From a gamma proteobacterium HTCC5015 (GTDB lineage: Bacteria > Pseudomonadota > Gammaproteobacteria > HTCC5015), in the NCBI GenBank assembly GCA_000155715.1, contig DS990601.1:124001-188000 (forward strand): a stretch of 64,000 nucleotides of DNA. Reading direction: 5' to 3'. This document shows, piece after piece, positions 5,853 through 33,297 of the stretch; within the stretch, counting starts at the first letter, position 1, and each line of letters begins with the position of its first letter. The notes under the pieces are model-generated. The model worked only from the letters and a program-made list of their open reading frames with translations, had not been told where the DNA came from and made no database searches. The position numbers and the translations under genes were made by a program.

Positions 5853-6727
5853 AAAGGAACCAGTTATTGGCACATGCCTGCCTTTTAGTAGCATTTCTCA
5901 CTGCCGGGTGCGACAGCGGCTCCCTCTCTGAAAATATAAAATACAACCAGACCAAACCCAAACGCATTTCAAAAACTGTTTACCAACAAACTGGAAATTA
6001 CCGATACAGGATAGAGAGTGAATATGAGTATGACGCCAAGGGAAGACTAACCAACATCAGGCAAGACCATGGGTTTTCCGAATACATCTACAACTTTGAG
6101 TACGTGAATAAAGGTCGAGTGAGCAGAATCACTGCCCCGAATAATTTTTTGCTCCCTGGAATCACTAGTGATGCAGAAGTCATTGATGTTTTGTATACAG
6201 AGAAAAACGACTTACCCGAGCGTTTTGTCTTCAATGAAGAACCACTCCATTCACTGGCGTTCACCTACAAACCCTCCGGGCAGCTTGAGAAAAGTGATTA
6301 TCGCAATCAAACGGATACAACTGATTCAGGCATCGACAATATCGTTTACAACCCCTATATGCTCTTTGGTATGAGAAGTATTGTTTATTCATATAATGAG
6401 CAAGGGATGATCAGTGCCGCAAAAACGATCCACTACGTGGACAACTGCCCCTCAGAAGAGACCCCTTGTTACCAGAAAAACGGGCAATATTCCGAGTACT
6501 ACAATTATCAAACAGTTACGGGCGACACCACCTTCGCCATAATCGATCAACCAGGCTCTATAACAACCATCATTACTAGCGAGAATTTTGGAAAACCTGT
6601 TATACATCAGAATCAGGCTAACGAATTTTATATAGAAATCACATACGAAGAAGCTATATGCCAAGAGGTATTCCCCGCTGGCTTTAAAATACCCAGCGTC
6701 TACGAATTGTCCCCATGCGCCGAATAG
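5849..6727 (+). CDS. Lipoprotein with YD-like repeats, function unknown
   Basis: The 292-residue protein begins with a lipoprotein signal peptide ending LTAGC at about residue 21. The body contains short tyrosine/aspartate strands such as YEYDAKGRLTNI and YSYNEQGMISAAK, which resemble the YD/RHS-type beta repeats, though I see too few for an RHS shell. Base composition is noticeably more AT-rich than the flanking genes. Its ATG overlaps the DUF815 stop (ATGA), and its own stop lies inside the following gene, so it is the middle of a three-gene operon. The lipoprotein at 58693 shares the same style of repeats. Confidence 0.75.
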   Translation: MKRNQLLAHACLLVAFLTAGCDSGSLSENIKYNQTKPKRISKTVYQQTGNYRYRIESEYEYDAKGRLTNIRQDHGFSEYIYNFEYVNKGRVSRITAPNNFLLPGITSDAEVIDVLYTEKNDLPERFVFNEEPLHSLAFTYKPSGQLEKSDYRNQTDTTDSGIDNIVYNPYMLFGMRSIVYSYNEQGMISAAKTIHYVDNCPSEETPCYQKNGQYSEYYNYQTVTGDTTFAIIDQPGSITTIITSENFGKPVIHQNQANEFYIEITYEEAICQEVFPAGFKIPSVYELSPCAE

Positions 6728-7767
6728 CAGCCACTATACTCGGCTTTCTGGCCGTCTGTTTTGTTCTGACAGCCTGGTTAAATTACGACCGTCCTGACAT
6801 TAGTACCCTGTTGCCAGCCACCGTATCGAAAACCACAGTCAACGATACCCAAAACGGCCTCCATGTCACATTCCTCGGCACAAGCACTGTGCTGTTGGAC
6901 GATGGCGAAACGCAGCTGCTGACCGACGGCTTTTTTACTCGTCCAAGCCTGCTTTCTCTGCTGGGTGAAATAAGTCCCGACCGACAAGTTGTGGAAGATG
7001 CGCTGCTTCAATACGGCATTAACGAAACGCTAGCGGCCGTCATCCCGGTGCATAGCCACCACGACCACGCCCTGGACAGCGCCCTCGTCGCCCAACTCAC
7101 GGGGGCAACACTGCTCGGCTCTGAATCCAGCGCGATGCTGGCTCGCGGTGAAGGTTTAGACAAGCGACAAATACGCGTCGCCGAGACTAAGCAGCCCTAT
7201 CAGTTTGGCAATTTCAGCGTCACGCTCATCGAATCGGGCCATGTGCCTATGCCCAACGCCATCGCGGGCTGGATCGGCCTCGGCGAAGACATCGAGAAAC
7301 CCGTTTCACCGCCCGCCAAACTGGGTGACTACCATCAGGGAATCGCCTACAGCGTCTTGATTGAACACCCCGAAGCGCGCCTTCTGATTCAGGGCAGCGC
7401 GGGTTTTAAAACCGATCAATTCACACACTTTCAGCCCGACGGCCCCGTCGACATTGTGCTGCTCGGTATCGCCGGCCTCAGTAAACAAAGCGATGACTAC
7501 CGCGCACAATACTGGCGTGAAATGGTTGAAACCATAGGGGCGATCACCATCGCCCCCATTCACTGGGACGACTTCACACAGCCTCTCAGCGCCGATTTAA
7601 TCGCCCTGCCAAGCTTAGTCGACGACCTCTCCGCTACGCTCGAAGACATTCAAGCTGCTCTCAAACCCGAGCAATCTATGCTCTATATGCAGCCCACCCA
7701 ACGCCACAGCATCAAAGACCTGCTCTCGCCTACCAAGCAGGCACCCACATCAAACACATCACAGTAG
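6715..7767 (+). CDS. Membrane-anchored metallo-beta-lactamase-fold hydrolase
   Basis: The 350-residue protein has an N-terminal hydrophobic anchor (about residues 4-21) followed by a metallo-beta-lactamase fold: FLGTSTVLLDDGETQLLTDG near residue 55 and the metal motif VHSHHDHALD near residue 112, with later histidines in SGHVPMPN and PIHWDDF. The arrangement resembles UlaG/RomA-like lactonase or phosphodiesterase members; the substrate is unknown. The start overlaps the preceding lipoprotein by 13 bases. The stop codon TAG is part of the GTAG head of the first REP palindrome, so the repeat array begins inside the last codon. Confidence 0.85.
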   Translation: MRRIAATILGFLAVCFVLTAWLNYDRPDISTLLPATVSKTTVNDTQNGLHVTFLGTSTVLLDDGETQLLTDGFFTRPSLLSLLGEISPDRQVVEDALLQYGINETLAAVIPVHSHHDHALDSALVAQLTGATLLGSESSAMLARGEGLDKRQIRVAETKQPYQFGNFSVTLIESGHVPMPNAIAGWIGLGEDIEKPVSPPAKLGDYHQGIAYSVLIEHPEARLLIQGSAGFKTDQFTHFQPDGPVDIVLLGIAGLSKQSDDYRAQYWREMVETIGAITIAPIHWDDFTQPLSADLIALPSLVDDLSATLEDIQAALKPEQSMLYMQPTQRHSIKDLLSPTKQAPTSNTSQ

Positions 7768-8088
7768 GAGCCGACCCAGCCGGCGAACAGCTTATGTACT
7801 ACCGTTCAGCGTTCGCCTGCGTGGCAGGCTCCTACAACAAACCCGACCGTAGGAGTCGGCCCTGCCGGCGAACAGCTTATGTGCCACCGTTCAGCATTCG
7901 CTTGCTTTAAAGCTCCCACATCAAACCCAACCGTAGGAGCCGACCCAGCCGGCGAACAGCTTATGTGCCACCGTTCAGCATTCGCTTGCGAGGCAAGCTC
8001 CTACAACAAAGCCTACCGTAGGAGCCGGCCCTGCCGGCGAATAGCTTATGTGCCACCGTTCGGCGTTCGCTTGCTTTAAAGCTCTTAC
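7764..8088. repeat. BIME array, four units (left of the RAYT)
   Basis: Four units start at 7764, 7849, 7933 and 8018. Each is about 71 bp: a forward REP (GTAGGAGCCGGCCCTGCCGG then CGAA), a loop containing TTATGTGCCACCGTTC, and an inverted REP ending GCTCCTAC; 13-14 bp spacers give a period of 84-85 bp. The inverted partner has two stem versions, one with CCTGC/GCAGG-type arms and one with GCTTTAAAGC. The first GTAG supplies the stop codon of the upstream hydrolase, and the last inverted REP supplies the stop codon of the RAYT. Confidence 0.93.
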
Positions 8089-8540
8089 AGCCAAATGGCG
8101 TCCCACAGAGGATAATCGCCAACCCGCTTCACCAAGTTGGCTCTTACAGGATTCGCCACAATGTAGCGCGCTATCGGAAGAATATCCTTTTCAGCACGTA
8201 TCGCTCTATCGTAAAAGCCTCGCTGCCATAGAGGCTGATGGGAAAGCATCTGCCTGCCCCACTCTTTCCGCGTTATCGACTTTACTTTCTGAACCACAAC
8301 ACTCAGCGAAGCTTTTTCCGACAACTGAAAAAGCCAATGCACATGGTCTGGCATAACGACAAAACACAAGGTGTCAGCTTGTGATTCAACTTCTTTTAAG
8401 CCTTTAACAAAGCAGCGACCTGAATAGAAATCGGCAAAAAGTGCTTGTTTTTGATAGCACGCCAGAGTGACTGAATAGATAGCTCCCGCCTGACTAACGC
8501 GACCCAACCTAAGTCGATGAGCTTTTGCCATCCTTGGCAT
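8085..8540 (-). CDS. REP-associated tyrosine transposase (RAYT)
   Basis: A 151-residue member of the Y1/HUH transposase superfamily (TnpA-REP). It shows the HUH motif in MPDHVHWLF (histidines 66 and 68) and a candidate catalytic tyrosine at residue 110 in QRGFYDRAIRAEKD, followed by ARYIVANPVRANLV, typical of RAYTs. These enzymes nick single-stranded REP sequences next to a GTAG tetranucleotide, and this gene is surrounded by such REPs. The ATG at 8540 has a strong AAAGGAGG site 6 bases upstream; an in-frame extension upstream merely reads through a REP. The stop TAA comes from a GTAAGAGC variant of the REP head. Confidence 0.92.
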   Translation of the reverse strand: MPRMAKAHRLRLGRVSQAGAIYSVTLACYQKQALFADFYSGRCFVKGLKEVESQADTLCFVVMPDHVHWLFQLSEKASLSVVVQKVKSITRKEWGRQMLSHQPLWQRGFYDRAIRAEKDILPIARYIVANPVRANLVKRVGDYPLWDAIWL

Positions 8541-8568
8541 TACAACCTCCTTTACATTCACATTAACC

Positions 8569-9185
8569 GTAGGAGCCTTAAAGCAGGCAAACAGCCCATG
8601 TGGCAATGGTCAGCATTCGCCTGCTTGGCAGGCTCCTACAACAAACCCGACCGTAGGAGCCGGCCCTGCCGGCGAATAGCTTATGTACCGCCGTTCGGCA
8701 TTCGCTTGCTTTAAAGCTCCTACAACAAACTCTACCGTAGGAGCCGGCTCTGCCGGCGAATAGCTTATGTGCCACCGTTCGGCATTCGCTTGCTTTAAAG
8801 CTCCTACAGCAAACCCTGCCGTAGGAGCCGACCCTGCCGACGAACAGCTTATGTGCCACCGTTCGGCATTCGCTTGCTTTAAAGCTCCTACAACAAACTC
8901 TACCGTAGGAGCCGGCCCTGCCGGCGAATAGCTTATGTGCCACCGTTCGGCGTTCGCCTGCTTTAAAGCTCCTACAGCAAACCCTACCGTAGGAGCCGGC
9001 CCTGCCGGCGAATAGCTTATGTGCCACCGTTCGGCGTTCGCTTGCTTTAAAGCTCCTACACCAAACCCTGCCGTAGGAGCCGACCCTGCCGACGAACAGC
9101 TTATGTGCCACCGTTCGGCGTTCGCCTGCTTTAAAGCTCCTACATCAATACACCGCCGTAGGAGTCGGCCCTACCGGCGAATAGC
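8569..9185. repeat. BIME array, seven units plus a half (right of the RAYT)
   Basis: Units start at 8569, 8653, 8737, 8821, 8905, 8989 and 9073, an exact 84 bp period, followed by one unpaired forward REP at 9158-9185. Each unit has the same head-to-head design as on the left side of the RAYT. Most inverted partners carry the TTTAAA-centred stem; that of 8569 has the GCAGG-type stem. Because 84 is divisible by three, one frame stays open across the array and gives a meaningless 28-residue repeat. The array ends 19 bases past the purL stop codon. Confidence 0.93.
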
Positions 9186-9204
9186 CGCGCGTACCCGTCT
9201 GGCT

Positions 9205-12200
9205 CTAACCCACAAACACCCGCGCATTGCGGAACAGGCGTAGCCAGGGGGCATCCTCTTGCCAGTCATCGGGGGCCCAAGAGTGCTGGAGGGCGCGGAA
9301 GACGCGCTCGGGGTGCGGCATCATAATCGTGGCGCGGCCGTCCGTGCTCGTCAGCCCCGTCACGCCATCGGGTGAGCCGTTGGGATTATAGGGGTAGTGC
9401 TCGGTGGCAGCACCTTGGGGATCGACGTAGCGCATGGCCACGCTCGCCTGAGCGGCGTCGCCAGAGAACACCGCGCGACCCTCGCCGTGCGCCACGGCGA
9501 TGGGCATGCGGGAGCCCGCCATGCCTTGTAACAACACCGAGGGCGATTCCTGAACTTCGACTTGCGCCAAACGCGCTTCGAACTGCTCTGAGAGATTGCG
9601 CTTAAATTCGGGCCAGTGCTCGGCGCCGGGAATTAAATCTTTCAACTGAGACAACATCTGACAGCCGTTACAAACCCCGAGTGAGAAACTGTCGCCTCGC
9701 TCAAAAAACACTTTAAATTGTTCTCGTAACTCACTGTTAAATAAAACAGTTTTTGCCCAGCCTCCACCGGCACCGAGGACGTCACCGTAGGAGAAACCAC
9801 CGCAGGCAACCAGACCTTTAAAGTCTTGCAGCTTGTGGCGCCCCGCAATCAAATCGCTCATGTGTACATCCACGGCCTTAAAGCCGGCGCGATCGAAGGC
9901 GGCGGCCATTTCAATCTGACCGTTGACACCCTGCTCTCGCAGCACCGCCATGGCGGGACGCGCGCCTGTGTTGATCATGGGTGCGGCGATGTTGTCGTTC
10001 ACATCAAAGCTGAGGTCGGCCCTCAAGCCCGTATTGGACGAATCGGCGATAGTGGCAAATTCCTGCTCCGCACACTCGGGATTATCCCGTAACTTTTGCA
10101 TTTCAAAGCTCGTGCGCGACCACTCCTGCTGCATCGCTGTGCGCGTGTTGCTGTACGCCAGCGCCTCGCCGTGGTGAATATCGATACGCTCCGAGCTGTG
10201 CGGCTTGCCAATGGCGTGGGTGATGCTGCCGAGGCCATGCTGCTTGAGCACCGCCATGACGGCATCGCGATCTTCGCTACGAATTTGCACAACCGCCCCC
10301 AGCTCCTCGGCAAAGAGCAGCGCGTTGGGCTCGTGATCGCTCAAACCGTCGTCGAGTTGAATGTGCAAACCACAGCGGCCCGCAAAAGCCATCTCGGCCA
10401 GCGTCGCCATCAAACCACCGTCGGAGCGGTCGTGGTAGGCCAGCAGCTTGCCGTCGGCATTGAGCGATTGGATGGCCTTAAAAAATTGCGCAAATTGTTT
10501 GGGGTCGTCCAAATCGGGCGCATCGTGACCCAGCTGGTTATACACTTGCGCCAAGGCCGAACCACCCATGCGGTTTCGGCCTGCGCCGAGGTCAATCAGC
10601 AGCAGTTCGCTGTCGCCACAATCTAAACGCAATTGTGGCGTGAGTGTGCGGCGAACATCGCCGACGGGCGAAAACGCCGACACAATCAAAGACAGAGGCG
10701 CTGTCATCGTGCGGTCCTCGCCGTTTTGATTCCACACGGTTTTCATCGACAACGAATCCTTGCCCACGGGAATGCAGAGACCCAAAGCGGGACACAGCTC
10801 CTCACCGACGGCTTTTACCGTATCGTACAGTGCCGCGTCCTCACCGGGGGCGCCGCAAGCGGCCATCCAGTTGGCCGACAGCTTAATATCACTCAAATGC
10901 TCAATCGGCGCGGCGGCAATATTCGTCAGCGCTTCACCGATCGCCATGCGACCCGAGGCGGCGGGTTCGATCAAGGCCACGGGGGTGCGCTCGCCCATGC
11001 TCATCGCCTCGCCGCGATAGCCCACATAATCCGCGCAGGTCACCGCAACGTCCGCCACGGGCACTTGCCAAGGCCCCACCATCTGATCGCGCGCCACTTG
11101 TCCGGTAATCGTGCGGTCGCCAATCGTAATCAAAAAGCTCTTGTTAGCGACTGCGGGCAATCGCAATACGCGCTTAACCGCCTCTGCCGTGGGCACATCG
11201 GCCGCTTGAAACGGTGTGTAGTGGCGATGCAAATGTGTGACGGTGCGCTGCATTTTGGGCGGTTTTCCCAGCAGCACTTCCAAGGGCATGTCCACGGGGC
11301 GATTGTCGAAATGGCGATCGTGAACCGTCAAGCGGCGCTCTGCGGTAGCTTGGCCGAGCACGGCGTAAAGGCAGCGCTCGCGCTCGCAGAAAGCTTTAAA
11401 CGTTTCCAATCCCGCTTCGCTCAAGGCCAGCACATAGCGCTCTTGAGACTCGTTGCACCAGATCGCCATAGGCGACATACCGGGCTCATCGTTGGGAATT
11501 TCGCGCAGTTCAAACTGGCCACCCACGCCGCCGTCATCAATGAGCTCGGGCACGGCGTTCGATAGGCCGCCCGCCCCCACATCGTGAATCGACATGATCG
11601 GGTTTTTTTCACCCATGGCCACGCAGCGATCAATGACCTCTTGGCAGCGGCGCTCCATCTCGGGGTTTTCACGCTGTACCGAGGCAAAATCCAAATCCGC
11701 CGAACTCGAACCCGACGTCATCGACGAAGCGGCACCACCGCCTAGGCCGATCTGCATCGCGGGGCCACCCAACACCACGATGTGCGCCCCCTCACGCAAA
11801 GGCTGTTTTTCGATGAGCGGCTCGCGAATGCTGCCCATGCCGCCCGCAATCATGATGGGCTTGTGATACCCGCGCAGTTCATCGTCTACATTGGCCGATA
11901 CGCCGCTGTGGATATTCTCCTCGTAGGTGCGGAAGTAGCCGCCCAAATTGGGGCGGCCAAACTCGTTGTTAAACGCGGCGGCGCCAATGGGGCCATCGGT
12001 CATCACCTCAAGCGCCGAGGCCATGCGACTGGGCTTGCCAAAGTCCTGCTCCCAGGCCTGTTCAAAGCCGGGAATACGCAAATTAGAGACGGAAAAACCA
12101 CACAGCCCCGCCTTGGGCTTAGAGCCCCGCCCGGTGGCGCCCTCGTCGCGAATTTCGCCGCCCGAGCCCGTTGCCGCGCCCGAGTACGGCGAGATCGCCG

Positions 12201-13098
12201 TGGGGTGGTTGTGCGTTTCCACCTTCATCAAAATATGCAGCGGCTCGCCATTGGCGCTGTACTCGCCAGTTTGCGGGTCGCAGAAAAAGCGCTGAGCATC
12301 GCCGCCCTCAATCACCGAGGAATTATCGCTGTAGGCCACGCGCACACCCTCGGGGTTTTTCTCGTGGGTATTGCGAATCATTTTAAACAGCGATTTGGGC
12401 TGGCGCTGGCCGTCGATCACCCAATCCGCATTAAAAATTTTGTGGCGGCAGTGCTCGGAGTTCGCCTGCGCAAACATCATTAACTCGGCATCGCTGGGAT
12501 TGCGACCCAAGCGTTGAAAATTCTCTACCAAGTAGTCGATCTCATCCTCTGAGATGGCTAGGCCCATTTCCGTGTTGGCCGCCACCAGCGCCTCGCGCCC
12601 CTGCCCCATCACATCCACCGTCGCCACGGGCGCAGGCTCCTCACTCACAAACAGCACTTCGGCGGCGTGAAAACTGCCCATCACCACTTCGGTCATACGA
12701 TCGTGCAGCACGGCGGAAACGGCCTCACGCTCTTGGGCGTTCAGCTCGCCATCGCAGTGCAAATAAAAGGCTGTGCCGCGCTCGATGCGACGAATCGGCC
12801 CCAGCCCCGTATTGTGGGCGATATCCGTGGCTTTAGACGACCAGGGAGAAATCGTACCGGGACGCGGCGCCACCAGCAGCAACTCTCCGTCGGGCTGGCT
12901 GCTGTGAGACTGAAAACCATAATCGAGAAGCGATTCCAACTGAGTGCGCTGTTCACCACTCAGCTCGCCGTCCACGGACACAAAATGGACAAATTCCGCG
13001 TCAATTTTCTGCACCATTGGCGCCACACGGCGGACCTCCAGCAACAGTTTGCGCAAACGAAAATCGGACAGCGCCGCAGAGCCGCGAAGGTGAAGCAT
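9205..13098 (-). CDS. purL: Phosphoribosylformylglycinamidine synthase (large single-chain form)
   Basis: At 1297 residues this is the full-length single-chain enzyme of gammaproteobacteria. It makes FGAM from FGAR, ATP and glutamine in step four of purine synthesis. Visible parts are an N-terminal PurS-like domain, the two AIR-synthase-like halves ([20 protein letters not shown] near 300; [10 protein letters not shown]-type motif [13 protein letters not shown] near 780) and a C-terminal class I glutamine amidotransferase domain with the nucleophile in [12 protein letters not shown] and the partner HGEGR. It is a lone gene; REP units follow its stop codon. Confidence 0.98.
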
Positions 13099-26610: not shown

Positions 26611-26620
26611 TTTCATCACC

Positions 26621-26775
26621 GTAGACGCCTGCCGTGCCGGCGAACAGCCTGTGGCAGTGGTTGGCATTCGCTTGCGTGGCAAGCTCCTACATCAATACAC
26701 CCCGTAGGAGCCGGCCCTGCCGGCGAACAAGCCATGCGGCAACGATTGGCATTCGCTTGCGTGGCAAGCTCCTAC
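26621..26775. repeat. BIME array, two units (after deaD)
   Basis: Units at 26621-26690 and 26704-26775, forward REP plus inverted REP with GCTTGC/GCAAGC-type inner stem. The first head is the variant GTAGACGCCTGCCGTGCCGG. The spacer between units is 13 bp. Confidence 0.9.
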
Positions 26776-26815
26776 AGCAATGTAGCCATCTATCGACGCA
26801 TCAACACGGGCTGGA

Positions 26816-28615: not shown

Positions 28616-28674
28616 GGCGAAAATGTATCGCAAGTGGCTCAGGGGGGAAAGCCGATTTTTGACCGAACCTTACC

Positions 28675-29384
28675 GTAGGAGCCGGCCGTGCCGGCGAAAA
28701 GCCCATGTGGCATCGGTCGACATTCGCCTGCTTTAAGCCTCCTACATCAATGCATTCATTTGTCGACGCATCACACCACCGTAGGAGCCGGCCATGCCGG
28801 CGAAAAGCCCATGTGGCACCGGTTGGCATTCGCCTGCTTTAAGGCTCCTACATCAATGTATCCATTTATCGATGCATCACACCACCGTAGGAGCCGGCCG
28901 TGCCGGCGAACAGCCCATGTGACACCGGTCGGCATTCGCCTGCTTGGCAGGCTCCTACGTCAATGCATCCATTTATCGATGCATCACACCACCGTAGGAG
29001 CCGGCCGTGCCGGCGAAAAGTTCATGTGGCAGCGATTGGCATTCGCCTGCTTGGCAGGCTCCTACATCAATGTATCCATTTATCGACACATCACACCACC
29101 GTAGGAGCCGGCCGTGCCGGCGAAAAGTTCATGTGGCAGCGATTGGCATTCGCCTGCGCGGCAGGCTCCTACAGCAATGTATCCATTTATCGATGCATCA
29201 CACCATCGTAGGAGCCGACCGCGCCGGCGAACAAGCCATGTGGCACCGGTTGGCATTCGCCTGCTTTAAGGCTCCTACATCAATGTATCCATTTATCGAC
29301 GCGTCACACCACCGTAGGAATCGGCCGTGCCGGCGAAAAGCCCGTGTGGCACCGGTCGGCATTCATCGGCTTTAAAGCGTCTAC
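28675..29384. repeat. BIME array, seven units with long spacers
   Basis: Units start at 28675, 28781, 28887, 28993, 29101, 29208 and 29314, a period of 106-108 bp. The 71 bp unit is the same as elsewhere, but the spacers are about 35 bp and share the text CCATTTATCGACGCATCACA. The last inverted REP is degenerate and its GTAGACGC head, read on the minus strand, provides the TAG stop codon of the neighbouring lipoprotein gene. Confidence 0.93.
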
Positions 29385-29971: not shown

Positions 29972-30688
29972 TTAAAACCACGCCGACACCCCCAGTACCC
30001 AACGCGTGCTCTCAGTGTGCTCACCGGTTGAACGCCGTTCCTGCGCCGTATCACCGAGACTGCTCTCGTGCTGGACGCCAAGGTAAGGGCCTATTTCCGG
30101 CTCCCATTCGTAGCGTAACCTCAAGCCCAGCTCCGCTTGACTGAAACCACTCTGTTCTACGTACTGAGGGCGATCACTGCCATTGGCGACGAGCTCAGCA
30201 CTGGGAACTAGCACCCAGCGTTGAGTCAGCATCCACTCGTACTCGCTTTCAAGTACCAGTTGGCTGTGACCTTCGCCATCGCTGTAGAGGGCCAAATCTG
30301 TATCAAAGTAATACGGTGCCAAACCCTGTATACCGATACCCAGCCACTCGGTATTGTCTTGGTGGCGGTAGTCGTCGATGCGCACGGAGACAAAGTAGTC
30401 CCAGAAGGTACTGAAAGCGCGGGCGTAGCGCAGCTCTTGGCGACTCGATTCGTACTCGCCCTCTTCGGCTTCACCGTGGGAAAGCAACCACCATTTTTGC
30501 AAGTCATAGCCAAGCCAGAGTTCGGCATCCCAAGTCTGGATGGTTTCGTCACTGCCATTGACCTCGCCCTGCTCTAACTCGTGCAGCATCGCTTTAAATA
30601 CCAGGGGATTATCGTTGCCCATGGCCGATACTTGGTTTACGGCCAGCGCCAAACCACACAGAACGATCGATTGAATTCGCCGTTTCAT
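29972..30688 (-). CDS. copB: Copper resistance protein CopB
   Basis: The 238-residue protein has a signal peptide (MKRRIQSIVLCGLALAVNQVSA) and an outer-membrane beta-barrel pattern with alternating aromatic strands ending in W-F (RWVLGVSAWF), as in PcoB/CopB. Family members often carry a His/Met-rich N-terminal extension; this one is the short core form. It starts within the copA stop (ATGA) behind GGAGGTACAGC, so both are translated together. Presumed outer-membrane partner of the oxidase CopA. Confidence 0.92.
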   Translation of the reverse strand: MKRRIQSIVLCGLALAVNQVSAMGNDNPLVFKAMLHELEQGEVNGSDETIQTWDAELWLGYDLQKWWLLSHGEAEEGEYESSRQELRYARAFSTFWDYFVSVRIDDYRHQDNTEWLGIGIQGLAPYYFDTDLALYSDGEGHSQLVLESEYEWMLTQRWVLVPSAELVANGSDRPQYVEQSGFSQAELGLRLRYEWEPEIGPYLGVQHESSLGDTAQERRSTGEHTESTRWVLGVSAWF

Positions 30689-32487
30689 GCTGTACCTCCC
30701 TCAACACGCACTTCGCGGAACATTCCCAGCATGTGGTAGAGCAAATGGCAGTGATAGGCCCAGCGCCCGACGGCGTCGGCACTGACCAGATAGGATATTT
30801 TAGCCCCCGGCTGAACAATCACCGTGTGTTTGCGGGGAATGTAACCGGCATCTCCCGTTTCTAGGTCGCTCCACATGCCGTGCAGATGAATGGGGTGATT
30901 CATCATAGTGTCGTTGACCAGAGTTATCCGCACTCGCTCACCCTGCTTCAAACGCAAGGGCTGGGCATCGGCGAATTTGATGCCATTGATCGACCACATA
31001 TAACGGCTCATATTACCGGTGAGATGTAACTGGATCTCTCGATCTGGCTCGCGGGGGTCTGGCGTACCGTAGCGATGCTTCAAGTCGGCGTAAGTCAGCA
31101 CCTTTCGCCCTAGCTCGCGGTGCTGGCGCAGGCCGACACCGGGATCATCCAAGCGATACTGAGGGGCTTCAGCCCGCATGTCGATATGTGGTCCAAACTC
31201 ACTCTGGCGATGCATTATCTCTCGAGCAGAGCCAAAGCCCGCACGGCCATCGCCCATGGATAGCTTTTCCATGCCATGGTGGGCGTGGTGGTCCGCCATG
31301 CCACCGTGGTGTGCCCCGTGGCTCATATCGTGTCCCATCATGGCCATTCCCATATCCCTGTGAGTCAGCTCGGGCGCGGCATCCATGGCGGGAATGTCGC
31401 CGAGCAACTCAGGGTCGGGCGTTAATGTGCCGCGAGCGTAACCACTGCGATCAATCGCCTGCGCAAACACGGTATAAGCTTGCTCACTCTCAGGCGTGAC
31501 CAGCACGTCGTAGGTTTCCGCAACACCTAGGCGAATATCGTCGACTGAGACGGGTTCGATGGGTTGTCCATCGGCCTCGATCACGCGCATTTTGAGCCCT
31601 GGGATGCGTACATCAAAAAAGGTCATAGCCGCCGCATTGATGATTCGCAGACGAACCGTCTGTCCTTTTTTAAATAGGCCGACCCAACCTGAATCGGGCG
31701 TCTGCCCATTCATCAGAAAGGTGTAGGTATAGCCCGTGACATCAGAAATATCCCGCGAACTCATGCGCATCTCGTTCCACATCGACCGATCGCGCCAAGT
31801 TTTCAACACCCCTTTTTGCTCAATGTCTCGCATCAAATCGCCCGCTGTGCGCTCTCGGCGGTTGTAGAAATGGGGCAGTTTTTTTAGCGTGCGATAGATG
31901 TCCTCAGGATCGTCGTCGCTCCAGTCGGAGAGCACCAGCGAATAGTCCACATCGGCTCGCATGGCGTCTTGCTCGGCGGGCTCAACCACTAGCGCCCCGT
32001 ACAATCCCGTTTGCTCCTGAAAGCCAGAGTGACTGTGATACCAGTAAGTGCCGCTCTGTTCGAGCTTGAACTGATAGCGAAATGTCTCGCCCGGCGCAAT
32101 ACCGTCAAAACTCAAGCCTGGAACACCGTCCATCCCCGTTGGCAAGATGATGCCGTGCCAGTGAATCGAGCTGGTCGCGGACAGTTGGTTGGTGACATCA
32201 ATCGTTACCGTATCGCCCTCTTTAAAGCGCAAGGTCGGAGCGGGCAAGCTGTTGTTGACGACCGTGGCCATGCGCTCGCTCCCCGTAAAATTGACGCGTT
32301 TTTCGCCAATCGACAAGCGAACGTGCTGCCCTCGCACCTCAGTGGGGCCGTTGTGCGACTGCCGCTCCAACAACGATGAGAAAGAAGCGGCCGATGCCAA
32401 TTTGTGAACGCCGAGCAAACTTAAGCCCGCGGCGCTTGAGGCGCCCAGTACGAAGCGGCGCCGATATAAATCAATAGAATGTGTCAT
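30685..32487 (-). CDS. copA: Copper resistance multicopper oxidase CopA
   Basis: The 600-residue periplasmic protein begins with a twin-arginine signal (YRRRFVLGASSAAGLSLLG). It has three cupredoxin domains with copper motifs SSIHWHGIILP, YWYHSHSG, HPIHLHGMW and HCHLLYHM, and a His/Met-rich insert around residues 375-405 (MAMMGHDMSHGAHHGGMADH) that can bind extra copper. PcoA/CopA oxidises Cu(I) and sequesters copper in the periplasm. It is the middle gene of a three-gene minus-strand operon. Confidence 0.96.
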   Translation of the reverse strand: MTHSIDLYRRRFVLGASSAAGLSLLGVHKLASAASFSSLLERQSHNGPTEVRGQHVRLSIGEKRVNFTGSERMATVVNNSLPAPTLRFKEGDTVTIDVTNQLSATSSIHWHGIILPTGMDGVPGLSFDGIAPGETFRYQFKLEQSGTYWYHSHSGFQEQTGLYGALVVEPAEQDAMRADVDYSLVLSDWSDDDPEDIYRTLKKLPHFYNRRERTAGDLMRDIEQKGVLKTWRDRSMWNEMRMSSRDISDVTGYTYTFLMNGQTPDSGWVGLFKKGQTVRLRIINAAAMTFFDVRIPGLKMRVIEADGQPIEPVSVDDIRLGVAETYDVLVTPESEQAYTVFAQAIDRSGYARGTLTPDPELLGDIPAMDAAPELTHRDMGMAMMGHDMSHGAHHGGMADHHAHHGMEKLSMGDGRAGFGSAREIMHRQSEFGPHIDMRAEAPQYRLDDPGVGLRQHRELGRKVLTYADLKHRYGTPDPREPDREIQLHLTGNMSRYMWSINGIKFADAQPLRLKQGERVRITLVNDTMMNHPIHLHGMWSDLETGDAGYIPRKHTVIVQPGAKISYLVSADAVGRWAYHCHLLYHMLGMFREVRVEGGTA

Positions 32488-32950: not shown

Positions 32951-33297
32951 GGCATTCGCCTGCGCGGCAGGCTCCTACAGCAATGTATTCCTCTATCGAT
33001 GGATCATCCTGCCGTAGGAGCTGGCCGTGCCGGCGAAAAGCCCATGTGCCATCGGTAGGCATTCGCCTGCTTTAAGGCTCCTACAGCAATGTATCCATTT
33101 ATCGACGCGTCACACCACCGTAGGAGCCGGCCCTGCCGGCGAACAGCCCATGTAGCACCGGTTGGCATTCGCCTGCTTTAAGGCTCCTACATCAATGTAT
33201 CCATTTATCGACACATCACACCACCGTAGGAGCCGGCCCTGCCGGCGAACAGCCCATGTGGCACCGGTAGGCATTCGCCTGCTTGGCAGGCTCCTAC
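32951..33297. repeat. BIME array, one half unit and three full units
   Basis: An unpaired inverted REP (32951-32978) is followed by units at 33013, 33120 and 33226, a period of 106-107 bp with the long CCATTTATCGAC-type spacer, the same class as the 28.7 kb array. It begins 44 bases upstream of the copL-like start, so any cop promoter must be very close to or overlap it. Confidence 0.92.

Follow-up and report, generated by a model that had tools for sequence, protein, structure and literature searches.

RAYT genes and the REPs around them have been described as REPtrons in Nunvar 2010 (PMC2817692), which reports inverted REPs flanking the gene, a REP near the stop codon, BIMEs surrounding one gene in three, and REPs gathered near rayt in three marine gammaproteobacteria and in Thauera. 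E. coli BIME-2, covered in the same source, is likewise made of several tandem units of two inverted REPs, although its REP sequence differs from the one studied here. In P. fluorescens SBW25 a higher-order REPIN cluster lies beside each of three RAYTs (Bertels and Rainey 2011, PMC3116915), and the largest ordered cluster reported there comprises four REPINs and one REP. Nunvar 2013 (PMC3686654) describes the orthoswitch, in which a new class of REP multiplies without displacing the old one from the genome. It has thus been described already that RAYTs can sit in BIMEs, that tandem REPIN clusters can adjoin them and that REPs can gather near them (Nunvar 2010; Bertels and Rainey 2011). The multiplication of REPs is still a matter of models in the part of the literature covered here.

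Here we analyse a RAYT locus of the gammaproteobacterium HTCC5015; coordinates are those of the window, the whole stretch of 64,000 nucleotides that was analysed. The locus shares with the REPtrons of Nunvar 2010 the flanking inverted REPs, the surrounding BIMEs, the REP close to the stop codon and the local accumulation of REPs, and with the SBW25 clusters the ordered, near-identical REPINs that carry flanking sequence. It differs from the SBW25 clusters in size, its arrays holding 7.5 and 4 units, and from the REPtrons in that its core units pair a strong with a degenerate REP and its local class of head REP lies one or two compensated base pairs from the scattered classes. A REP class confined to the surroundings of a RAYT offers a test of local spread, and of what moves as a unit, a lone REPIN or a segment that includes a spacer.

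The RAYT locus and its two arrays

The features of the locus are as follows.

6715–7767, + strand: neighbouring gene for a metallo-beta-lactamase-fold hydrolase (Pfam Lactamase_B_3, 25.2 bits, cut-off 24)
7764–8088, + strand: left REPIN array, units L1 to L4, with head REPs beginning at 7764, 7849, 7933 and 8018
8085–8540, − strand: RAYT (REP-associated tyrosine transposase, TnpA_REP), 151 amino acids, ATG at 8540, with matches to NF047646, Y1_Tnp and 4er8
8569–8639, + strand: unit R1, a REPIN divergent in sequence but with a well-folding hairpin
8653–9157, + strand: core right array, six units R2 to R7, each a 71-nt REPIN plus a 13-nt spacer (last spacer 14)
9158–9185, + strand: terminal half unit, head REP only
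9205–13098, − strand: neighbouring gene purL, for phosphoribosylformylglycinamidine synthase; it converges with the metallo-beta-lactamase-fold gene

Positions 7764–9185 hold the RAYT with four REPIN units to the left of the gene and 7.5 to the right, and the head REP lies on the + strand in all 11.5 units; the assembly is a 30-contig draft, and array counts are subject to possible assembly errors. An earlier note on this DNA had given 11.5 units in one orientation on both sides of the gene, and our recount agrees, as 4 + 7 + half. The left head REPs follow one another in steps of 85, 84 and 85 bp. On the right they begin at 8569, 8653, 8737, 8821, 8905, 8989 and 9073, six steps of exactly 84 bp each, and the half unit starts 85 bp after the preceding head REP. 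TRF scores are 461 for the left array (7764–8074) and 904 for the right (8613–9185), with a threshold of 50.

In each REPIN at the RAYT, a loop of about 24 nt joins the head REP to an inverted tail REP, 23 or 24 nt long, and the units are separated by 13-nt spacers of the AACAAACCCTACC type, the last of which has 14 nt. In the left array, a 23-nt tail of the TTTAAA type gives a step of 84 bp and a 24-nt tail one of 85 bp; the final right step of 85 bp results from the 14-nt spacer. The exact 84-bp step over seven right-hand units that the note described holds, though R1 (8569–8652) reaches 84 bp by other part lengths, with a 23-nt head and a 24-nt tail, the reverse of the other units. We also considered helical phasing, 84 bp being 8.0 turns of 10.5 bp, and rejected it: basic periods of RAYT-adjacent arrays in other species span about 61 to 182 bp and, judged by eye, do not favour whole turns.

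Eight units (L2, L4 and R2–R7), which we call core units, are 90–99% identical to one another, whereas R1 is 68–71% identical to them. L4 and R6, on opposite sides of the RAYT, are 99% identical. The head of R1 is a short TTAAAG-type REP, inverted relative to the REP at the RAYT stop codon. That stop codon, TAA, falls inside the tail REP of L4, and the TAG stop of the metallo-beta-lactamase-fold gene is supplied by the first GTAG of the left array.

Read from its sequence, the RAYT gene is intact and a predicted domesticated transposase. It matches NCBIfam NF047646 with 135.5 bits (cut-off 80; scored on the longer frame 8085–8606) and Pfam Y1_Tnp with 34.4 bits, and scores 29.1 bits against the IS200 model NF033573, under its cut-off of 55. 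The product carries an HUH motif (H66-V67-H68) and a putative catalytic residue, Tyr126; in the match to PDB 4er8 (E = 1.5e-6) this tyrosine aligns, by count, with chain position 115, and Y115 is the catalytic residue of E. coli TnpA_REP (PMC8266576). By eye, AAGGAGG precedes the start codon. The gene is flanked by inverted REPs at 8066–8088 (−) and 8569–8591 (+), both of which match the short REP pattern with a single mismatch.

An IS200/IS605 insertion sequence was rejected as an identity for the gene, near-identical copies being absent: the genome holds three RAYT-like genes, and the best paralogue is 50% identical. This second RAYT (7700–8500 of L166, contig C30) has its own REP family (GTRGGAGGCCCGCC...CGGGCCGA). 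The third RAYT-like gene (5619–6053 of L167, contig C5) has the best NF047646 match in the genome, at 188 bits; no good REP of family A was found on the 10 kb of contig C5. Base composition offers little evidence that the RAYT is foreign: its GC content of 47.6% ranks at the 7.5th percentile among 456-bp pieces of the window.

REPs near the RAYT and elsewhere in the genome

REPs of the RAYT-array family are concentrated near the gene. Of 106 counted, 43 lie in the 25.5 kb that start at the RAYT array, 0.97% of the genome, and by locus 4 of 28 fall inside this stretch against 0.27 expected (P = 0.00015). Such clustering is unlikely to be a general property of the genome, since the REP family beside the C30 RAYT is dispersed, with one of 21 exact matches to a strict pattern near that gene. 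The long REP pattern found no match in six further genomes, of which three belong to the same family and three to the same class.

Across 37 distinct long REPs, 96.4% of cells in the GTAG-tag palindromes are paired, and the stem covariation score is 0.387 against 0.108 in shuffles, none of 500 of which reaches 0.387. Both sides of the stem have changed at two of six base pairs; the search pattern fixed the REP ends, but neither of the two covarying pairs. The covariation is consistent with ordinary GTAG REPs.

Three more REPIN arrays in the window, absent from the earlier note, stand without a RAYT.

26619–26781, + strand: REPIN doublet, period about 85 bp
28672–29375, + strand: REPIN array of 6.6 units, period 106–107 bp, with its own 35-nt spacer; 704 bp, TRF score 1050
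32951–33297, + strand: REPIN array of 3.3 units, period 106 bp, with the spacer type of the array at 28672

Taken together, the two RAYT arrays have more units (11.5) than any other array seen in the genome, which bears out by half the idea, put up for testing in the note, that the largest array sits at the RAYT; taken singly, the longer of them (6.8 units, 573 bp by TRF) is equalled by the array at 28672–29375, 20 kb away. The note's description of the RAYT as the source gene is supported only locally, by the concentration of REPs in the 25.5 kb that begin at its array. Speaking against it are the equal array without a RAYT, the TTAAAG type of the two REPs that touch the gene and, in Alcanivorax sp. 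24, a large array with no RAYT detected nearby.

The 35-nt spacer has eight matches in the genome (up to three mismatches), all within the arrays at 28672–29375 and 32951–33297. These arrays, 3.6 kb apart, both contain two spacer variants, in opposite order. Between them, at 30685–32487, lies a gene whose translation reads as multicopper-oxidase-like. The sequence at 26776–26815, after the doublet, resembles by eye the 35-nt spacer of the arrays farther right.

The concentration is sharper for one class of REP, with a CCGGC stem. Allowing one mismatch, 23 such REPs occur in the genome and 22 of them in the 25.5-kb stretch, all 22 on the + strand; by locus, the class is present at 4 of 4 within the stretch and 1 of 24 elsewhere (Fisher P = 0.0002). 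The lone distant copy, at C25:131027, is closest to R2 (86%) and L3 (85%). It is possible, though we regard it as rather unlikely, that an orthoswitch-like change is in progress here, in which the stem of head REPs near the RAYT passed from a scattered type, CGTGC or CCTGC, to CCGGC by one or two compensated base-pair changes and the new class then took over or founded every REP locus in the stretch, in one strand orientation, and reached one other place (C25:131027). If so, the spread would be short-range and would proceed by copying of spacer-bearing segments. This reading is weakened by the two REPs that touch the RAYT (8066–8088 and 8569–8591), which are of the short TTAAAG type and thus fall outside the new class; the CCGGC REPs lie farther out. 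In an orthoswitch the REPs flanking the RAYT would themselves be of the new class; in HTCC5015 they are not. Whereas the orthoswitch as described in PMC3686654 was inferred by comparing genomes, the HTCC5015 class is largely confined to a single stretch. The case adds to the described systems this contrast between loci near the RAYT and elsewhere, and perhaps an orthoswitch that is still local; no account of one still confined to the surroundings of its RAYT was found in the literature searched, whose scope excluded most subscription journals and cited additional files.

Orthologous RAYT loci in other genera

We extended the comparison to 80 named RAYT loci, the best of 576 and mostly from Pseudomonas; the relatives searched were 35 other genomes, all from genera other than that of HTCC5015. 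Of the 80 loci, 14 have a tandem array no farther than 1.5 kb from the RAYT, where random placement in the same loci gives 7.2 and reaches 14 in 5 of 5,000 trials; this enrichment is about twofold, and placements at locus ends see less sequence, which lowers the expectation somewhat. Arrays flank the gene on both sides in five loci (L047, L067, L068, L102 and L113), and by eye the first in-frame RAYT stop lies within GTAGGAG in five (L049, L067, L071, L085 and L092).

Orthologous loci of sister species differ in their arrays. The distance from the RAYT to the next conserved flank is about 70 bp in P. congelans and about 750 bp in P. cerasi, where TRF finds 6.3 units of 125 bp; in strain KUIN-1 the same interval spans about 3 kb, and an array of 8.2 units of 182 bp by TRF takes up about 1.5 kb of it. 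In Amphritea, A. atlantica carries a single RAYT that lacks a tandem array within 1.5 kb. Relative to this locus, that of A. pacifica (L068) carries about 1 kb extra on each side of the RAYT, with arrays on both sides and, in the extra sequence of one side, a second RAYT copy; the copies, at 8001–8423 and 8801–9223, form a direct repeat 800 bp apart in the REPIN array and give the same tblastn alignment. RAYT-adjacent alignments among these orthologous loci are 88–96% identical. Thus, in Pseudomonas and Amphritea the RAYT stays in place and the array differs greatly between sister species. These loci are the nearest substitute for the count of units across strains that the earlier note had suggested, and array sizes vary among them. 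With a fixed RAYT and widely differing arrays, the two syntenic sets (P. congelans, P. cerasi and KUIN-1; A. atlantica and A. pacifica) could also be used in culture.

In Alcanivorax sp. 24, the array next to the RAYT has 8.8 units, and three larger ones, of 9.8–10.9 units, share its 11-kb locus. A further array in this genome (L179, 3557–4594) has 11.3 REPIN units of 92 bp, and a tblastn search of its 8-kb stretch with the HTCC5015 RAYT found no RAYT within about 3.4 kb. The genome gives 1,087 matches to a degenerate REP pattern, on several contigs among the matches listed. The metallo-beta-lactamase-fold neighbour of the HTCC5015 RAYT was not found in three genomes of the same family, two of them 63% and 73% complete, in a search that had no positive control.

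Growth of the arrays

We think it probable that the REPINs beside the RAYT grew into two arrays by tandem duplication and local copying, with the RAYT as the probable origin of the REP family. Tandem duplication is favoured over separate insertions because the spacer repeats along with the unit. The earlier note had preferred serial amplification to single insertions, and the in-register spacers back that preference, as do the array-size differences between sister species at orthologous RAYTs of other genera. The locus is read as a REPtron, an intact RAYT between the metallo-beta-lactamase-fold gene and purL with its own REPs on both sides. A REPIN and its spacer would have been duplicated in tandem by replication slippage or unequal recombination, and segments copied further, locally, across about 25 kb. 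By nicking single-stranded REP beside its own gene, the RAYT might promote repair or slippage there, and in this way its cleavage could drive array growth. An array can nevertheless be large without an adjacent RAYT, and growth may owe nothing to the RAYT, because equal or larger arrays occur without one. Growth at the HTCC5015 locus may be recent.

The folding of the REPINs bears on how they were copied. As whole-REPIN hairpins, the eight core units average z −1.6 and the remaining 30 of the 38 units −3.7 (P = 0.0007, computed on non-independent units); 15 of these 30, including L1 and R1, reach z ≤ −4. Weak folding is a consequence of the short type of tail (mean z −2.0 over the 15 units that have it), and the folding energy of the L4 tail REP is −1.6 kcal/mol, compared with −7.8 for a head REP. 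Because well-folding units make up all or part of other arrays (z −4.5 to −5.2 at C28:90331–90497; z < −5 in three of six units at 28.7 kb), weak folding is no mark of amplification. Nonetheless, the core units do fold weakly, and a strong hairpin was therefore no requirement for copying.

These observations tell against the idea that the RAYT excises single-stranded REPINs and inserts each by an existing GTAG site, so that an array is built unit by unit. TnpA_REP does cleave and join single-stranded REP in vitro (PMC8266576), all 22 CCGGC-class heads on contig C27 lie on the same strand, as strand-biased insertion predicts, and some other arrays are made up of well-folding REPINs. However, the spacer was copied together with the REPIN, and the core units combine a degenerate tail REP with weak REPIN folds, so that we consider this route improbable. 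Insertion of the RAYT gene into a pre-existing array would account for the gene replacing a spacer between two complete REPINs, for the common orientation and spacer type of the two sides and for the near-identity of L4 and R6. It is nevertheless very improbable: R1, at the RAYT start, lies outside the core array, and in other genera an orthologous RAYT can have few or no units (P. congelans, A. atlantica), the array being the variable part there.

Selection might instead keep the array as a 3′-end element that serves in transcription end, mRNA protection or gyrase binding between convergent genes, with the RAYT incidental. The position of the array and the gene stop codon inside the first REP are in keeping with such a role, and it is reported that gyrase binds BIMEs and that REPs influence transcription and mRNA (PMC2817692, PMC3686654). 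Array size is, though, not a conserved feature among orthologous RAYTs of other genera, and one REPIN would presumably be enough as a terminator; we judge this explanation quite improbable. Tandem duplication with local copying remains our preferred account.

The variants within the right array bear on the size of a duplication step. R4 and R7 lie three units apart and have in common two variants exclusive to them among the eight core units, as well as a third that also occurs in L2. Over whole 84-bp blocks, spacers included, R7 differs from R4 at 10 positions and R2 from R4 at only 5; because R2 is thus nearer to R4 than R7 is, a step of three units is weakly supported. Elsewhere in the genome, the arrays on contigs C28 and C23 have an 11-nt spacer of the AGCAC type in common.
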